32,887 nucleotides of DNA, taken from the NCBI GenBank assembly GCA_003105265.1, contig PQAP01000001.1, positions 21,203-54,089 on the forward strand, written 5' to 3'. The notes beneath the pieces are model-generated. The model did no database searches, had not been told where the DNA came from, and saw nothing but the letters and a program-made list of their open reading frames with translations. This stretch comes from a candidate division GN15 bacterium (GTDB lineage Bacteria; Zixibacteria; MSB-5A5; GN15; FEB-12). Made by a program: the position numbers and the translations under genes. The number at the start of each line of letters is the position of its first letter. Position 1 is the stretch's first letter. Below are positions 18,934 through 29,549 of the stretch, piece after piece.

Positions 18934-18956
18934 TCTGCAAATTTAGTGGAATGCAG

Positions 18957-18981
18957 GGCCCGCCTCAGGCGGGCCTTTTTT
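18957..18981 (+). terminator. Rho-independent terminator of the beta-barrel gene
   Basis: GGCCCGCC (18957-18964) and GGCGGGCC (18968-18975) form a perfect 8-bp stem with a TCA loop, followed by six T. This is a canonical terminator 23 nt after the stop codon. Confidence 0.93.
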
Positions 18982-19020
18982 GTAGTTGGCGATTCATCTT
19001 CAGTTCCCTACGTTTCGCAC

Positions 19021-20370
19021 ATGTCTGGAACCCGACTGCTTGTGGTCGATGATGAACCGGATCAGCGGAGTTTACTGGCCGGGTATCTGGCGCGGCGCGG
19101 CTTCGAGGTGAGCGCCGCTTCGGGTGGTCCCGAAGCACTCGAGCTGTACCCGTCGATCTTTGCGCCCGTCGCGCTAGTGGATATGAAAATGCCCGGCATG
19201 ACGGGTCTCGAACTTCTGACCCGTCTGCGCGAACTCAATCCGTTTTTGCAGGTGATTGTGCTGACTGCGTTCGGCTCCATCGAGACGGCGGTAGCGGCCA
19301 TGCGCGCCGGTGCGTACGACTATCTTACGAAGCCGGTCGAAGACCTGGAAGAGTTGGTTGTCAAAATCGAGAAGGCGGCTGAGCAGAACAAGCTGGTGGC
19401 GGAACACCAGGCAATGAGCCGTCAACTCGCGGAAATCTTCCCGGACACCGGGATTCTCGGTGAATCGCCCGCCATTCAGCAGGTCAGAGAGACTATTGCG
19501 CTGGTTGCGCCGCGCGATTCCACAGTGCTCATCACGGGAGCGTCAGGAACCGGCAAAGAACTTGCCGCCCGCGCCGTGCACGCGCTTTCCTCACGCGCTG
19601 AAAAGAGTTTTGTGGCTATTAACTGCGCGGCGTTCCCGGAGACCCTGCTGGAAGCTGAGTTGTTCGGCTACGAGCGCGGCGCATTCACGGGGGCTGACCG
19701 GACCAAGCAGGGGAGATTTGAACTGGCCGATGGCGGCACGCTGTTTCTCGATGAGATCGCCGAGATGCCGGTCACGATGCAGGCGAAGCTATTACGTGTG
19801 CTCGAAGATCACCACATTCAGCGGCTCGGGTCCGTCAAGTCGATCAAGCTGGATATTCGTCTCGTGGCCGCTACCAATCGCGATTTGAAGCTGCTGATTT
19901 CCGAGAAAAGATTCCGCGAGGACTTGTATTATCGGCTGGATGTCGTGCGCATACAGATGCCGTCGTTGGCTGAACGACCCGGCGACATCATCTTGCTTGC
20001 CAAACACTTTTTGGATCGCCACGCCCGTCGGCTGGGGCGGCAGATCAAGAGTTTCGACCAGAATGCAATCACCGCGCTCACTCATTACAGCTGGCCGGGA
20101 AACGTCAGGGAGCTGGAGAACGTGATTGAACGCGCGGTGGTCCTTTCGACCGCTGGGGTGTTGACCGCCGACACACTCGCCGGCTTGAACCGGGAGGATT
20201 CCATCGGCGTCTCCCATGACGTGGTCCCCCTGTCGGACATGGAGCGCACACATATCAGGAAGGCCCTCGAACAGTTCAATTGGAATATAGGGGAGACCGC
20301 CGAGGCACTCGGCATCCATCGAAACACCCTCCGGACCAAAATCAGCGAATACGGCCTTCGGAAGCCCTGA
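19021..20370 (+). CDS. NtrC-family sigma54-dependent response regulator
   Basis: A 449-residue transcription activator with three domains. The receiver domain (residues 1-120) has acidic pocket D10-D11, phosphoacceptor Asp54 (LVDMKMPGM) and the KPVE lysine. The AAA+ domain (about 145-380) has Walker A GASGTGKE, the sigma54-contacting GAFTGA loop ([10 protein letters not shown]), Walker B LFLDEI and the [16 protein letters not shown] motifs. The C-terminal Fis-type helix-turn-helix is [20 protein letters not shown]. When phosphorylated by a sensor kinase, it should activate sigma54 promoters. The frame extends upstream to 18946, but that part covers a terminator, so the ATG at 19021 is the start; its ribosome-binding site is weak. 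No sensor kinase lies next to it. Targets are unknown. Confidence 0.95.
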
Positions 20371-23613: not shown

Positions 23614-24537
23614 ATGAAAACTACAATGCGTACAACTGATACCATTCTTGCGCTTGGCTTAGCTCTTATCGCGATTTTGGCGCCGGGTGTCATTCAGGCA
23701 CAACAGGGGTCTATCGCGATCGATCGCGTCACCTGCCGGTTCCAGGGCGATACTGTGCTGCTGCCGGGGAATGTCACGTTTGTCCTCCGCTATACCAACA
23801 ATACGGGGATGAAGGTCGACATCAGTGACGGTTTCCGCGTATCATCGCCCGATGGCGCCTATTGGGACAGCACTACCGTCATGGAGTCGGCAGGCGGCAC
23901 GTTTGCGGCTTATTTCGATGTCGTCTTTTACCTTGGTATCGCGGGCGGTTATATCCCCGGCGATGACACAATCGGTGTCCTGGGATCGGGAACGCCAACC
24001 GCGCCCAATCGACGGTTGCCCGATGGATACACCGGCACGCCGGTCACGATTACGCTCTGGAACCTGCCGGAGACAAACCACGGAAAGCATGTCTGTCTTG
24101 ACAGTAGCTTCTTTACTCCCGGCGGGACCTGGAAATGGGTGAGCGTGAATGGCGGCGTGGAGTACACTTACAAGCCGACCTTCTCCGGTTTATCCGGTCA
24201 GGCGTACAGCCCCGGCTCCGGATACTGCTTCTACCTCTATCATATGCCTTGCGCCGTTCTGAAGGAACGACTCGATAACCAGTCCGCTGTTGCCGTGTCG
24301 GGCTGCCCGTGCAGTATCTGCTGCACCGGCACTACCGGTGATGTCAATGGTGCAGGTATCGTTGATCTCAGCGACCTTAGTGCACTGGTTGCCTATTTGA
24401 CCGGCGGGGGATACGTGCTGCCGTGTGAAGAGGAAGCCAATATCAACGCTGCCGGCATAGTTGATCTATCGGACCTCAGCTCCCTGGTCAGCTACCTCAC
24501 CGGCGGCGGGTACGTACTTCCGTCCTGCCCACTATAG
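23614..24537 (+). CDS. Secreted protein with two C-terminal dockerin-like repeats
   Basis: A 307-residue exported protein with a signal peptide ending near VIQAQQ. A beta-rich, immunoglobulin-like N-terminal region of unassigned family has several Cys in its last third (CFYLYHMPCAVL, GCPCSICCTG). Two dockerin type I-like repeats follow at about 242-270 and 275-303: DVNGAGIVDLSDLSALV and NINAAGIVDLSDLSSLV, each followed by YLTGGGYVLP. Dockerin repeats bind calcium and normally dock to cohesins; here Ala replaces the usual fifth-position Asp in both loops, so calcium binding may be weak. An alternative ATG at 23626 has a similar but more distant AGGA site. Similar repeats are common at the C-termini of secreted proteins in FCB candidate phyla, where they may serve as sorting or anchoring modules. 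Confidence 0.85.
   Translation: MKTTMRTTDTILALGLALIAILAPGVIQAQQGSIAIDRVTCRFQGDTVLLPGNVTFVLRYTNNTGMKVDISDGFRVSSPDGAYWDSTTVMESAGGTFAAYFDVVFYLGIAGGYIPGDDTIGVLGSGTPTAPNRRLPDGYTGTPVTITLWNLPETNHGKHVCLDSSFFTPGGTWKWVSVNGGVEYTYKPTFSGLSGQAYSPGSGYCFYLYHMPCAVLKERLDNQSAVAVSGCPCSICCTGTTGDVNGAGIVDLSDLSALVAYLTGGGYVLPCEEEANINAAGIVDLSDLSSLVSYLTGGGYVLPSCPL
24337..24522 (+). repeat. Tandem dockerin-like repeat units inside the preceding gene
   Basis: Two 87-nt units at 24337-24423 and 24436-24522, separated by 12 nt, encode near-identical dockerin-like segments. The protein copies agree at most positions while many third codon positions differ, pointing to an old duplication kept by selection. Confidence 0.75.
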
Positions 24538-24625: not shown

Positions 24626-24653
24626 TTGACTGGCGTTATAAATCCTGTAAATT
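24626..24653 (+). promoter_or_regulatory. Candidate promoter of the heat-shock operon
   Basis: TTGACT (24626-24631), 16-bp spacer, TAAATT (24648-24653), a sigma70-like match 64 bp before the hrcA ATG. The inverted repeat at 24664-24701 lies directly downstream, where a repressor site would be expected. Confidence 0.5.
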
Positions 24654-24663
24654 ATGGCTAAAC

Positions 24664-24701
24664 TGCCAATTGAAATGCCAAAATGGCATGATTGTCTGGC
24701 A
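24664..24701. promoter_or_regulatory. TGCCA/TGGCA inverted-repeat operator candidate before hrcA
   Basis: A perfect inner repeat ATGCCA-AAA-TGGCAT (24675-24689) is flanked by a further TGCCA (24664-24668) and TGGCA (24697-24701), nearly symmetric around 24682. It sits between the predicted transcription start and the hrcA ATG, the usual place of CIRCE. It does not resemble the CIRCE consensus TTAGCACTC-N9-GAGTGCTAA. Confidence 0.5.
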
Positions 24702-24716
24702 ATAGGTTAACACGAT

Positions 24717-25769
24717 ATGGTATCCGGGTTTGAACATCTGTCGGAACGTGAGAAGCAGGTACTGGCGAATCTGGTGAACTACTATATCGCCTCAGCCGAC
24801 CCGGTCGGTTCACGGGTGATCGCCAACCGATTCAATATGGGCCTCTCGTCGGCGACTATCCGCAACACGCTCCAGGACCTTGAGGAACTGGGACTGGTAG
24901 AACAGCCGCATACCTCGGCGGGCCGAATTCCGACCGACAGCGGCTACCGCGTCTATGTCGATTTCCTGCTTAAGCCCGAGAAACTGAGCGCCGCTGAAGA
25001 ACAGAAGATTCGCAGCGGGATCCTGAAAGAGGGGCGCGGGATCAACGAAATCCTTGGGCAGACCGCCAAAATCCTCGGCGATATCAGTAAACAGCTGGGC
25101 GTCACGATTGCCCCGAAATTCGAGGAAGGGCAGCTCCGCAATGTCCGGTTGATCCCGGTCGCCGACGGCCGGATCATGGTGATCGTGATTGTCAATTCCG
25201 GACTGGCCAGATCGGTGATACTGGAGATCGAGGCGACGTTCGATGACGGTGCTCTGGCCGAAGTTGAGCAGGCACTCAACGAGCGGCTGGCGGGACTGAC
25301 GCTGGCGGACATCCGCGATACGATTTCCGCCCGCATGTCGAACGTAACCGGCCACGGCCGTCTGCTCAATCTGGTGATCGACTCGAAAGACAGGATCTGG
25401 CGGGAGGACCGCAGCGACGACCTGTTCGTGGCGGGCACCGACAAACTGCTCACCATGCCGGAGTTCGCAAGTCGGGAGCGGCTCTCGAACCTGATGAAGC
25501 TGCTCGAGGATGGCCGCGTCCTGTCGGAGTTCCTGAGCCAGGCGCACGAGGAAGGACTGTTCATTACCATCGGGCGGGAGAACACGATCAGTGAAATCGT
25601 CAACTGCTCGGTAGTGAGCTCAACGTACAAGATCGGCAATATCACCGGGACGATCGGCGTGATCGGGCCGACCCGCATGCCGTACAGCAAACTGGTGTCG
25701 GTCGTGGAATATACGGCCCGGTCAATCACGGAAGTGTTGTCGGGATTGGATTACAAACGGGATACGTGA
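24717..25769 (+). CDS. hrcA: Heat-inducible transcription repressor HrcA
   Basis: HrcA represses heat-shock chaperone operons and is kept active by GroEL. The 350-residue protein begins with the winged helix-turn-helix (LSEREKQVLANLVNYYI, PVGSRVIANRF, SSATIRNTLQDLEELGLVEQPHTSAGRIPTD in parts), typical for the family. It continues with the GAF-like inducer/dimer domain and the C-terminal segment IGRENTISEIVNCSVVSS, then GTIGVIGPTRMPYSK. Length is standard. It opens the hrcA-grpE-dnaK-dnaJ operon, with grpE 4 bp after its stop. The expected CIRCE operator is not seen upstream; a different inverted repeat takes its place. Confidence 0.96.
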   Translation: MVSGFEHLSEREKQVLANLVNYYIASADPVGSRVIANRFNMGLSSATIRNTLQDLEELGLVEQPHTSAGRIPTDSGYRVYVDFLLKPEKLSAAEEQKIRSGILKEGRGINEILGQTAKILGDISKQLGVTIAPKFEEGQLRNVRLIPVADGRIMVIVIVNSGLARSVILEIEATFDDGALAEVEQALNERLAGLTLADIRDTISARMSNVTGHGRLLNLVIDSKDRIWREDRSDDLFVAGTDKLLTMPEFASRERLSNLMKLLEDGRVLSEFLSQAHEEGLFITIGRENTISEIVNCSVVSSTYKIGNITGTIGVIGPTRMPYSKLVSVVEYTARSITEVLSGLDYKRDT

Positions 25770-25773
25770 GAAG

Positions 25774-26391
25774 ATGACAGACGAAAAGACCATGCGCGGC
25801 GACAACGATTCGCCTGAAAAAATTGAAATCGAAATTGAACACGCCGGTAAAGGTCCGTTGCCGGTCGATCCCGACCCCGTGCTCAAAGCCGAAGATTTCT
25901 CCGGCGAGCCGGCGACCGACGAGGAGTCAACCGCGGTAGAGGTGGAAACGCCCAACCAGCGCATTCGCGAACTGGAAGACAAACTGCTTCGGACTGCCGC
26001 CGACTTCGACAACTACAAGAAGCGGACCGCCCGTCAATTCGAAGAAATGGCCAATGCCGCCACCGACCGGCTTATGGGTGAGTTTCTCGAGATCATTGAC
26101 AATTTCGAACGGGCACGCGAACACGCCCGTGAAGACGCCTCGCTGGAATCGCTGCTTAAGGGATTGGAACTGATCCACGGGCAGATGGTGGCGTTGCTCG
26201 CAAAATACAATATCGAGCCAATCGAGGCGCTCGGCAAACCGTTCGATGCGAACCTTCATGATGCGCTGTTTCAGGTGGATTCGGATGAATATGCCGAAGG
26301 AATCGTGGCGCAGGAAGTGGCGAGAGGATACAAGCAGGGAAATCGGGTTTTGCGGCACAGCCGCGTTGCGGTCAGCAAGGGGAAAAAGTAA
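25774..26391 (+). CDS. grpE: Nucleotide exchange factor GrpE
   Basis: GrpE releases ADP from DnaK and so drives its folding cycle; it also acts as a thermosensor through its long helix. The 205-residue product has an acidic, disordered N-terminus, a long coiled coil (IRELEDKLLRTAADFDNYKKRT, in part), and the family signature region including LIHGQMVALLAKYNIEPI, GKPFDANLHDALF and a final beta domain with GIVAQEVARGYKQGNRVLRHSRVAVSKG (in part). It sits between hrcA and dnaK, 4 bp and 53 bp away respectively. The ATG at 25774 has a weak GAGAAG site inside the end of hrcA, suggesting translational coupling. Confidence 0.95.
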   Translation: MTDEKTMRGDNDSPEKIEIEIEHAGKGPLPVDPDPVLKAEDFSGEPATDEESTAVEVETPNQRIRELEDKLLRTAADFDNYKKRTARQFEEMANAATDRLMGEFLEIIDNFERAREHAREDASLESLLKGLELIHGQMVALLAKYNIEPIEALGKPFDANLHDALFQVDSDEYAEGIVAQEVARGYKQGNRVLRHSRVAVSKGKK

Positions 26392-26435: not shown

Positions 26436-28379
<1,944 letters not shown>

Positions 28380-28385
28380 GGGCAG

Positions 28386-29549
28386 ATGACCGCCAAGAGA
28401 GATTTCTACGAGGTCCTGGGAGTCGACCGCTCTGCCGATGAGGCGGCGGTGAAGTCGGCCTACCGGAAGAAGGCGATGCAGTACCACCCGGACCGCAATC
28501 CGGGCAACAAGGACGCAGAGGAGAAGTTCAAGGAGGCAACCGAAGCGTACGAGGTGCTGAAAGATCCTCAGAAGCGGCAGATGTACGATCAATACGGTCA
28601 CGCGGGACTGGGCCAGGGAGCCGGTTTCGGCGGCTACGGCGGCGGGTTCGAGGGATTCGATCTCAGCGATGCCCTTCGCGCCTTCATGCGCGATTTCGGA
28701 GGTGGCGGCTCTATTTTCGAGGACTTCTTCGATACCGGGATGGGGCGTGGCCGCCGCTCCAACCGCGGCGAGGATCTGCGCGTCCGCATTACCTTGACTC
28801 TTGAAGAGATTAATTCCGGCGTGGAAAAGACGCTCAAGGTGAATCGCCTGCTCCGGTGCGAAGTCTGCAGCGGATCCGGCGTGGCGGCCGGATCTTCTCG
28901 AAAGACCTGCCCGCAATGTAAGGGCGCGGGCCAGGTGCGGACGGTCTCCCGTACGTTCCTCGGTACGATTCAGCAGGTCAGCACCTGCAATATGTGCAGA
29001 GGAACCGGGGAGATCATCGCCGACCCCTGCCGCAACTGCGGCGGCGAGGGCCGCACCAAGGGAAGCTCTACCGTCACCATCAAGGTTCCGCCGGGTGTTT
29101 CCAGCGGCAACTATATGACGGTCGACGGCATGGGCAATGCCGCACCCCACGGTGGGACGCCCGGAAACCTGATTGCCGTCTTTGAGGAGAAGGAACATCA
29201 GCTTTTCACCCGCCACGGTGACAATATCATTTACGAAATGCCGATTTCGTTTGTCACCGCGACGCTGGGGGGCGAGGCTACCGTGCCGACGTTGAACAGT
29301 TCGGAGAACCTGAAGATTCCGGCCGGGACACAGTCGGGCAAGGTCCTTCGGCTGAAAGGCAAGGGGATTCCGCATTTGCACCACTCCGGTCGCGGTGACC
29401 AGTTGGTGCAAGTGATGGTCTGGGTACCAACTAAACTGAACGCCGAAGATAAGAATCTGCTCGAGACGCTGGCCCGGTCCGACGGTTTCAAACCGCCCAA
29501 GACAGACAAATCGTTTTTTGAACGGCTGCGTGAGTCGCTGGGAGTATAG
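28386..29549 (+). CDS. dnaJ: Hsp40 co-chaperone DnaJ
   Basis: DnaJ delivers substrates to DnaK and stimulates its ATPase. The 387-residue type I protein has a J domain with the HPD motif ([17 protein letters not shown]) and a Gly/Phe-rich linker (about 75-110, [14 protein letters not shown]). The zinc-finger domain has four CxxCxGxG repeats ([32 protein letters not shown]), and the C-terminal substrate-binding domains are present. All key residues are present. It lies 6 bp after dnaK and 2 bp before prmA. Confidence 0.97.

Follow-up and report, generated by a model that had tools for sequence, protein, structure and literature searches.

A conserved palindrome in place of CIRCE at hrcA in a family of Zixibacteria, and a candidate second regulator of proteostasis genes

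HrcA and its operator CIRCE are among the most conserved regulatory pairs of bacteria, and HrcA is usually assumed to control its own operon. In Campylobacter the groES and hrcA promoters are occupied by two regulators, HspR bound further upstream and HrcA on its CIRCE at the start site (PMC7464140), the operator of HspR being the HAIR element, CTTGAGT-N7-ACTCAAG (PMC7464140). A similar pairing of HspR/HAIR with HrcA/CIRCE on chaperone promoters is found in Helicobacter (PMC7464140). A small heat-shock gene of E. coli, ibpB, is known to have a sigma-54 promoter (PMC4316790, PMC4370416). A search of the literature returned nothing relevant on the motif described here, on heat shock in Zixibacteria or on the regulator gene linked to rnr, the gene for RNase R; for a phylum with stress responses undescribed in the literature searched, the present comparison provides a defined motif, a proposed regulon and a candidate regulator.

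The hrcA locus analysed here shares with the HrcA/CIRCE system the gene family, the operon and the position of the element relative to the promoter, and CIRCE is intact at groES. On the other hand, the element at hrcA has a different sequence, a 3 bp centre, the opposite arm order and an extra TGNCA box, and it is also found at rnr, lon and hsp20. As in the dual control by HspR and HrcA, two regulators would act on chaperone promoters and the site of the second lies 5' of the CIRCE promoter at groES; however, the palindrome is another one, no HspR was identified, the hrcA site lies 3' of the -10 box, rnr is a core target and the hsp20 promoters are sigma-54-like. The hsp20 genes resemble ibpB, being small heat-shock protein genes with a promoter of the sigma-54 type (sigma-54-like in Zixibacteria), although ibpB is a single gene beside sigma-32 control, whereas a regulon that also includes hrcA, groES, lon and rnr is proposed for Zixibacteria.

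The hrcA promoter and the fate of its CIRCE

The window, i.e. the whole stretch of 32,887 nucleotides that was analysed, contains an hrcA-grpE-dnaK-dnaJ gene cluster preceded by the element under study. The relevant features are as follows.

24626..24631, + strand: -35 box of the hrcA promoter, TTGACT, read from the sequence
24648..24653, + strand: -10-like box, TAAATT, after a 16 bp spacer, inferred from the sequence
24664..24668, + strand: left outer TGNCA box (TGCCA), separated from the core palindrome by a 7 bp spacer
24675..24689, + strand: core palindrome ATGCCA-AAA-TGGCAT, the proposed operator, with inner boxes TGCCA (24676-24680) and TGGCA (24684-24688)
24697..24701, + strand: right outer TGGCA box, particular to the window's genome and probably outside the conserved element
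24717..25769, + strand: hrcA, with PF01628 and PF03444 and a TIGR00331 score of 319 bits (cut-off 197)
25774..26391, + strand: grpE, open reading frame named by sequence and gene order
26445..28379, + strand: dnaK, open reading frame named by sequence
28386..29549, + strand: dnaJ, open reading frame named by sequence

When used as an alignment query, the HrcA of the window found its nearest named relatives in metagenome-assembled genomes of the FCB group and of Candidatus Zixiibacteriota. The family of the window (f1) comprises at least 55 genomes and belongs to an order that holds three sister families (f2, f3 and f4); 33 hrcA promoters from f1 and 19 from the sister families were compared. 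Palindromes were counted as matches to the f1 consensus CTGCCA-N3-TGGCAG with two or fewer mismatches, using shuffled sequences as a control, and CIRCE was defined as TTAGCACTC-N9-GAGTGCTAA with few mismatches allowed.

A preliminary description of this DNA had read a four-box dyad between a TTGACT/TAAATT promoter and the ATG of hrcA, in place of CIRCE. A check of the sequence located the four boxes, the inner palindrome, the promoter and the start codon as listed above, and the description of the element as standing in place of CIRCE is correct for hrcA, where the closest match to CIRCE has nine mismatches; no CIRCE with three or fewer mismatches was detected anywhere in the window. Exact copies of the inner palindrome number one in the window and four in the 2.97 Mb genome, the other three lying within coding sequence, while the three-box form TGMCA-N7-TGCCA-N3-TGGCA, allowing one mismatch, has a single copy in the 2.97 Mb searched, at hrcA. 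The gene 5' of hrcA (23614-24537) encodes a product that ends with two dockerin-like repeats (DVNGAGIVDLSDLSALVAYLTGGG). Across the order, the promoters of hrcA and groES have a spacer motif in common, CTTGAC-n-(C)GTTATAA or CGTTTAA-n-TATATT (24626-24654 in the window, and the groES promoters of relatives).

The repeat proved to be conserved among the hrcA promoters of f1, 30 of 33 of which carry the palindrome against a mean of 0.15 and a maximum of 1 in shuffled sequences. None of the 19 sister-family promoters contains it, and all 19 retain CIRCE-like sites with 2-4 mismatches; a perfect CIRCE is found at hrcA in the distant Zixibacterium SM23_81, and the match to CIRCE in f1 hrcA promoters is down to 3-10 mismatches. 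The core conserved in f1 is TGNCA-N7-TGCCA-N3-TGGCA, the upstream TGNCA box being present in all 30 elements with a spacer of 7 bp (27 elements) or 8 bp (three). A right outer TGNCA at the spacing seen in the window was detected in one of the 30 elements, that of the window's genome, and in none of the 29 others. Of the four-box dyad, the outer right box is thus not conserved, and the earlier proposal of two nested half-site pairs accommodating two dimers is not supported; the conserved unit consists of one palindrome and one upstream TGNCA box.

In 24 of 29 f1 hrcA promoters the palindrome lies 49-50 bp from TTGAC, which places the centre of the palindrome near +20, the usual place of CIRCE. 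Moreover, the left arm of the f1 palindrome is in register with the right arm of the former CIRCE. The hrcA site of one genome (G011) reads TTAGCACTC-TGACAGTGT-GGCTGCCAA-AATGGCAG, and the left CIRCE arm, TTAGCACTC, is intact at hrcA both there and in G065. As judged from these alignments, CIRCE at hrcA is replaced by a new palindrome in f1, with intermediates still visible, and hrcA looks like a later recruit to the palindrome regulon, the left arm lying on the old right arm of CIRCE. The hrcA operator was lost and replaced within a single family, while CIRCE at groES stayed intact and intermediates persist, so that the steps by which a core stress response was rewired can be followed one by one.

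As explanations for the missing CIRCE, the preliminary description had offered a changed DNA specificity of HrcA or control of the chaperones by a different repressor. A CIRCE before groESL was looked for as evidence against an altered HrcA, and was found both in the window's genome, where a perfect copy (0 mismatches) lies 0.12 kb 5' of groES, and in its relatives, with two or fewer mismatches in 51 of the 51 genomes analysed. The HrcA of the window passes the TIGR00331 cut-off and both Pfam matches, as listed above, and has as a solved structural relative the HrcA homologue 1STZ from T. maritima; the winged-helix motifs of the window's HrcA, ATIRN and PHTSAGR, hardly vary between families, whether or not their hrcA has CIRCE. 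A change in HrcA specificity is contradicted by the groES CIRCE kept in the same genome and by the unchanged DNA-binding domain. The alternative of a different repressor fares better in that a second regulator is supported, although it would act beside HrcA and not instead of it. In three f3 groES promoters (L109, L111 and L117) CIRCE reads TTAGCGCTC-N9-GAGCGCTAA, both arms being altered symmetrically. One genome, G004, is 96% complete and lacks an HrcA match, yet has a CIRCE-like site at groES, which may reflect an assembly gap or gene loss; another, G024, has two HrcA matches above the cut-off, by duplication or contamination.

Palindrome sites at rnr, groES, lon-like and hsp20 genes

Outside hrcA, exact palindromes lie repeatedly 5' of the same few genes. 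The palindrome precedes rnr in 36 of 39 promoters across all four families (0.24 in shuffles), and in 27 of these promoters it ends 17-18 bp before the TTGAC of the -35 box; the other distances are 6-8 bp (three promoters) and 26 bp (one), in steps of about one helical turn. The rnr site of the window's own genome has one mismatch and lies 17 bp before CTTGACA. Small secreted proteins of Spy/CpxP-like appearance are often encoded directly 5' of rnr (L184, L187, L320 and other rnr neighbourhoods).

Recurrence of the repeat before groESL, which had been suggested as a check, was observed in 13 of 30 f1 groES promoters (0.12 in shuffles), where the palindrome is located 5' of the intact CIRCE, mostly by 71-132 bp; in over half of f1 the palindrome at groES is weak or missing, and none was found at groES in the sister families. 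A gene for a lon-like protease (AAA_32) carries the palindrome in 14 of 22 f1 promoters, compared with 0.37 in a control obtained by shuffling two-base blocks, and in none from f2 or f4; the site in the window's own genome has two mismatches and lies at -300. Finally, hsp20 is preceded by the palindrome in several genomes. A number of lon-like promoters (L236, L241, L245, L249, L253, L257 and L265) end in a conserved TATATT box, which in some cases lies about 16 bp downstream of a GTTTCAA-like sequence, perhaps a sign of another sigma factor. The lon-like gene at L312, L328 and L329 has a divergent neighbour, which encodes a small, conserved membrane protein with a PAS-like segment; the palindrome is found about 16 bp beyond the stop codon of that neighbour.

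The total number of exact palindromes in the genomes of the family (61) is not clearly above that of a reversed-pattern control (45), and the window's own genome displays no whole-genome over-representation of the palindrome; the three-box form occurs 98 times in the order against 29 in the control, mostly at hrcA and rnr. The evidence that the palindrome is functional is thus the location and the conservation of its sites, not their total number. On this comparative evidence, one palindrome is shown to be common to five proteostasis gene sets and to be separate from CIRCE. The site occurs at rnr in all families but at the other genes only in f1, so the simplest view is that the rnr site is ancestral and that the regulon spread to the chaperones within f1.

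A candidate regulator and competing explanations

The best candidate for the regulator is probably an NtrC-type enhancer-binding protein (EBP) encoded next to rnr. Where enough sequence was available, nearly every genome has its gene directly 3' of rnr, the start usually overlapping the rnr stop codon by 4 nt, and the product has about 475 residues. The copy in the window's own genome is located 28 nt after rnr (G000:C48:17505-18920). The palindrome stands before this rnr-EBP operon, as expected for an autoregulated EBP. The sigma-54 activation AAA+ domain (PF00158) and the Fis-type HTH (PF02954) were identified in four homologues of the rnr-linked EBP, as in the NtrC-type EBPs NtrC, RtcR and PspF, and its structural relatives are NtrC, ZraR and FleQ. 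The recognition helix, LGIGERTLYRK, is invariant in 23 aligned members. In contrast to the known EBPs, the rnr-linked proteins have no receiver domain recognized by Pfam in the homologues searched, score below every NCBIfam cut-off for known EBPs (the best for the own-genome copy being ntrC and RtcR) and contain the loop motif GAFTGS in most members, with GAFTGA in f2.

Six hsp20 promoters contain sigma-54-like boxes of the form TTGGCACG-N4-TTG 3' of the palindrome, at a distance of 139-141 bp in four and of 78-79 bp in two, so that inverted-repeat sites about 80-140 bp 5' of a sigma-54-like promoter form a further likeness to NtrC-type systems. Such boxes number only 17 in the 1.77 Mb of DNA searched, and those at hsp20 have TTG(A/T) at -12 rather than TTGC. 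This arrangement suggests that small heat-shock proteins are under enhancer-type control, a rare situation. Sigma-54 promoters were also considered at hrcA, rnr and groES and rejected, the matches there not being consistent; the promoters of these three targets are sigma-70-like, which is at variance with known NtrC-type EBPs. As a consequence, we only infer the identity of the regulator, and one protein would have to activate some sites and repress others.

The principal competitor to the rnr-linked EBP, and an unlikely one though it deserves weight, is that the palindrome is the operator of a second regulator of another kind, either an HspR-like MerR protein or a member of an unknown family. 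HspR has such a role beside HrcA in Campylobacter (PMC7464140), 22 of 23 genomes encode MerR proteins, and the sigma-70-like promoters of hrcA, rnr and groES would be in keeping with a protein other than an EBP. By inspection, however, CTGCCA-N3-TGGCAG does not resemble HAIR, and the sole conserved MerR gene, which is the one MerR gene found in the window's own genome, argues against an HspR-like MerR regulator, as it adjoins a gpsA-like gene and lacks an upstream palindrome. The occurrence of the site at the rnr-EBP operon itself in all four families and the set distances between the palindrome and the sigma-54-like boxes at hsp20 also argue for the EBP over another protein.

The remaining explanations are less probable still. 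Binding of the new hrcA palindrome by HrcA itself, with a broadened or changed specificity, would be compatible with the register of the left arm on the ancestral right arm of CIRCE and with the left CIRCE arms that survive in some promoters, but is improbable given the CIRCE kept at groES (perfect in the window's genome) and an HrcA wHTH that is the same across families; besides, the half-sites of the palindrome have the opposite orientation to those of CIRCE and are 8 bp apart rather than 18, and the palindrome is separate from CIRCE at groES and is found at rnr in families whose hrcA retains CIRCE. An RNA hairpin made by the boxes in the leader of hrcA, acting as a thermometer or attenuator, is very improbable. 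The leader does fold better than shuffled sequences (z = -2.1), but in the fold predicted for the window the left outer box is paired with the right outer one, and no relative has the latter; at rnr and groES the palindrome lies 5' of the -35 box, hence outside the transcripts from those promoters, which points to a DNA rather than an RNA element. Palindromes of this length do arise by chance a few times per genome; a chance repeat devoid of function is nevertheless refuted, relative to shuffles, by a sequence and a position that are maintained in at least 30 genomes and in five gene families, and in particular by the f1 hrcA promoters described above (30 of 33 against 0.15).

On balance, the element is rather likely to be the operator of a second proteostasis regulator beside HrcA/CIRCE, namely the rnr-linked EBP. 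Binding to CTGCCA-N3-TGGCAG would be by a dimer of this protein, with the Fis-type HTH making the contact. In front of hsp20 the palindrome would serve as the upstream activating sequence of a sigma-54-type promoter, while at rnr, where it is centred near -61, it may mediate autoregulation of the rnr-EBP operon. At hrcA, just 3' of the -10 box (at about +20), the bound protein would block transcription of hrcA-grpE-dnaK-dnaJ until stress, and groESL would be the remaining target of HrcA. More tentatively, the rnr-linked EBP may be the master regulator of protein quality control in Zixibacteria, governing hsp20, the lon-like gene, groESL, hrcA-dnaK and rnr, and may have captured the hrcA operon by conversion of the old CIRCE, leaving HrcA no longer self-regulating.

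Another NtrC-type response regulator is encoded in the window, at 18946-20370; its GAFTGA motif is complete, suggesting that the window's genome makes use of sigma-54.
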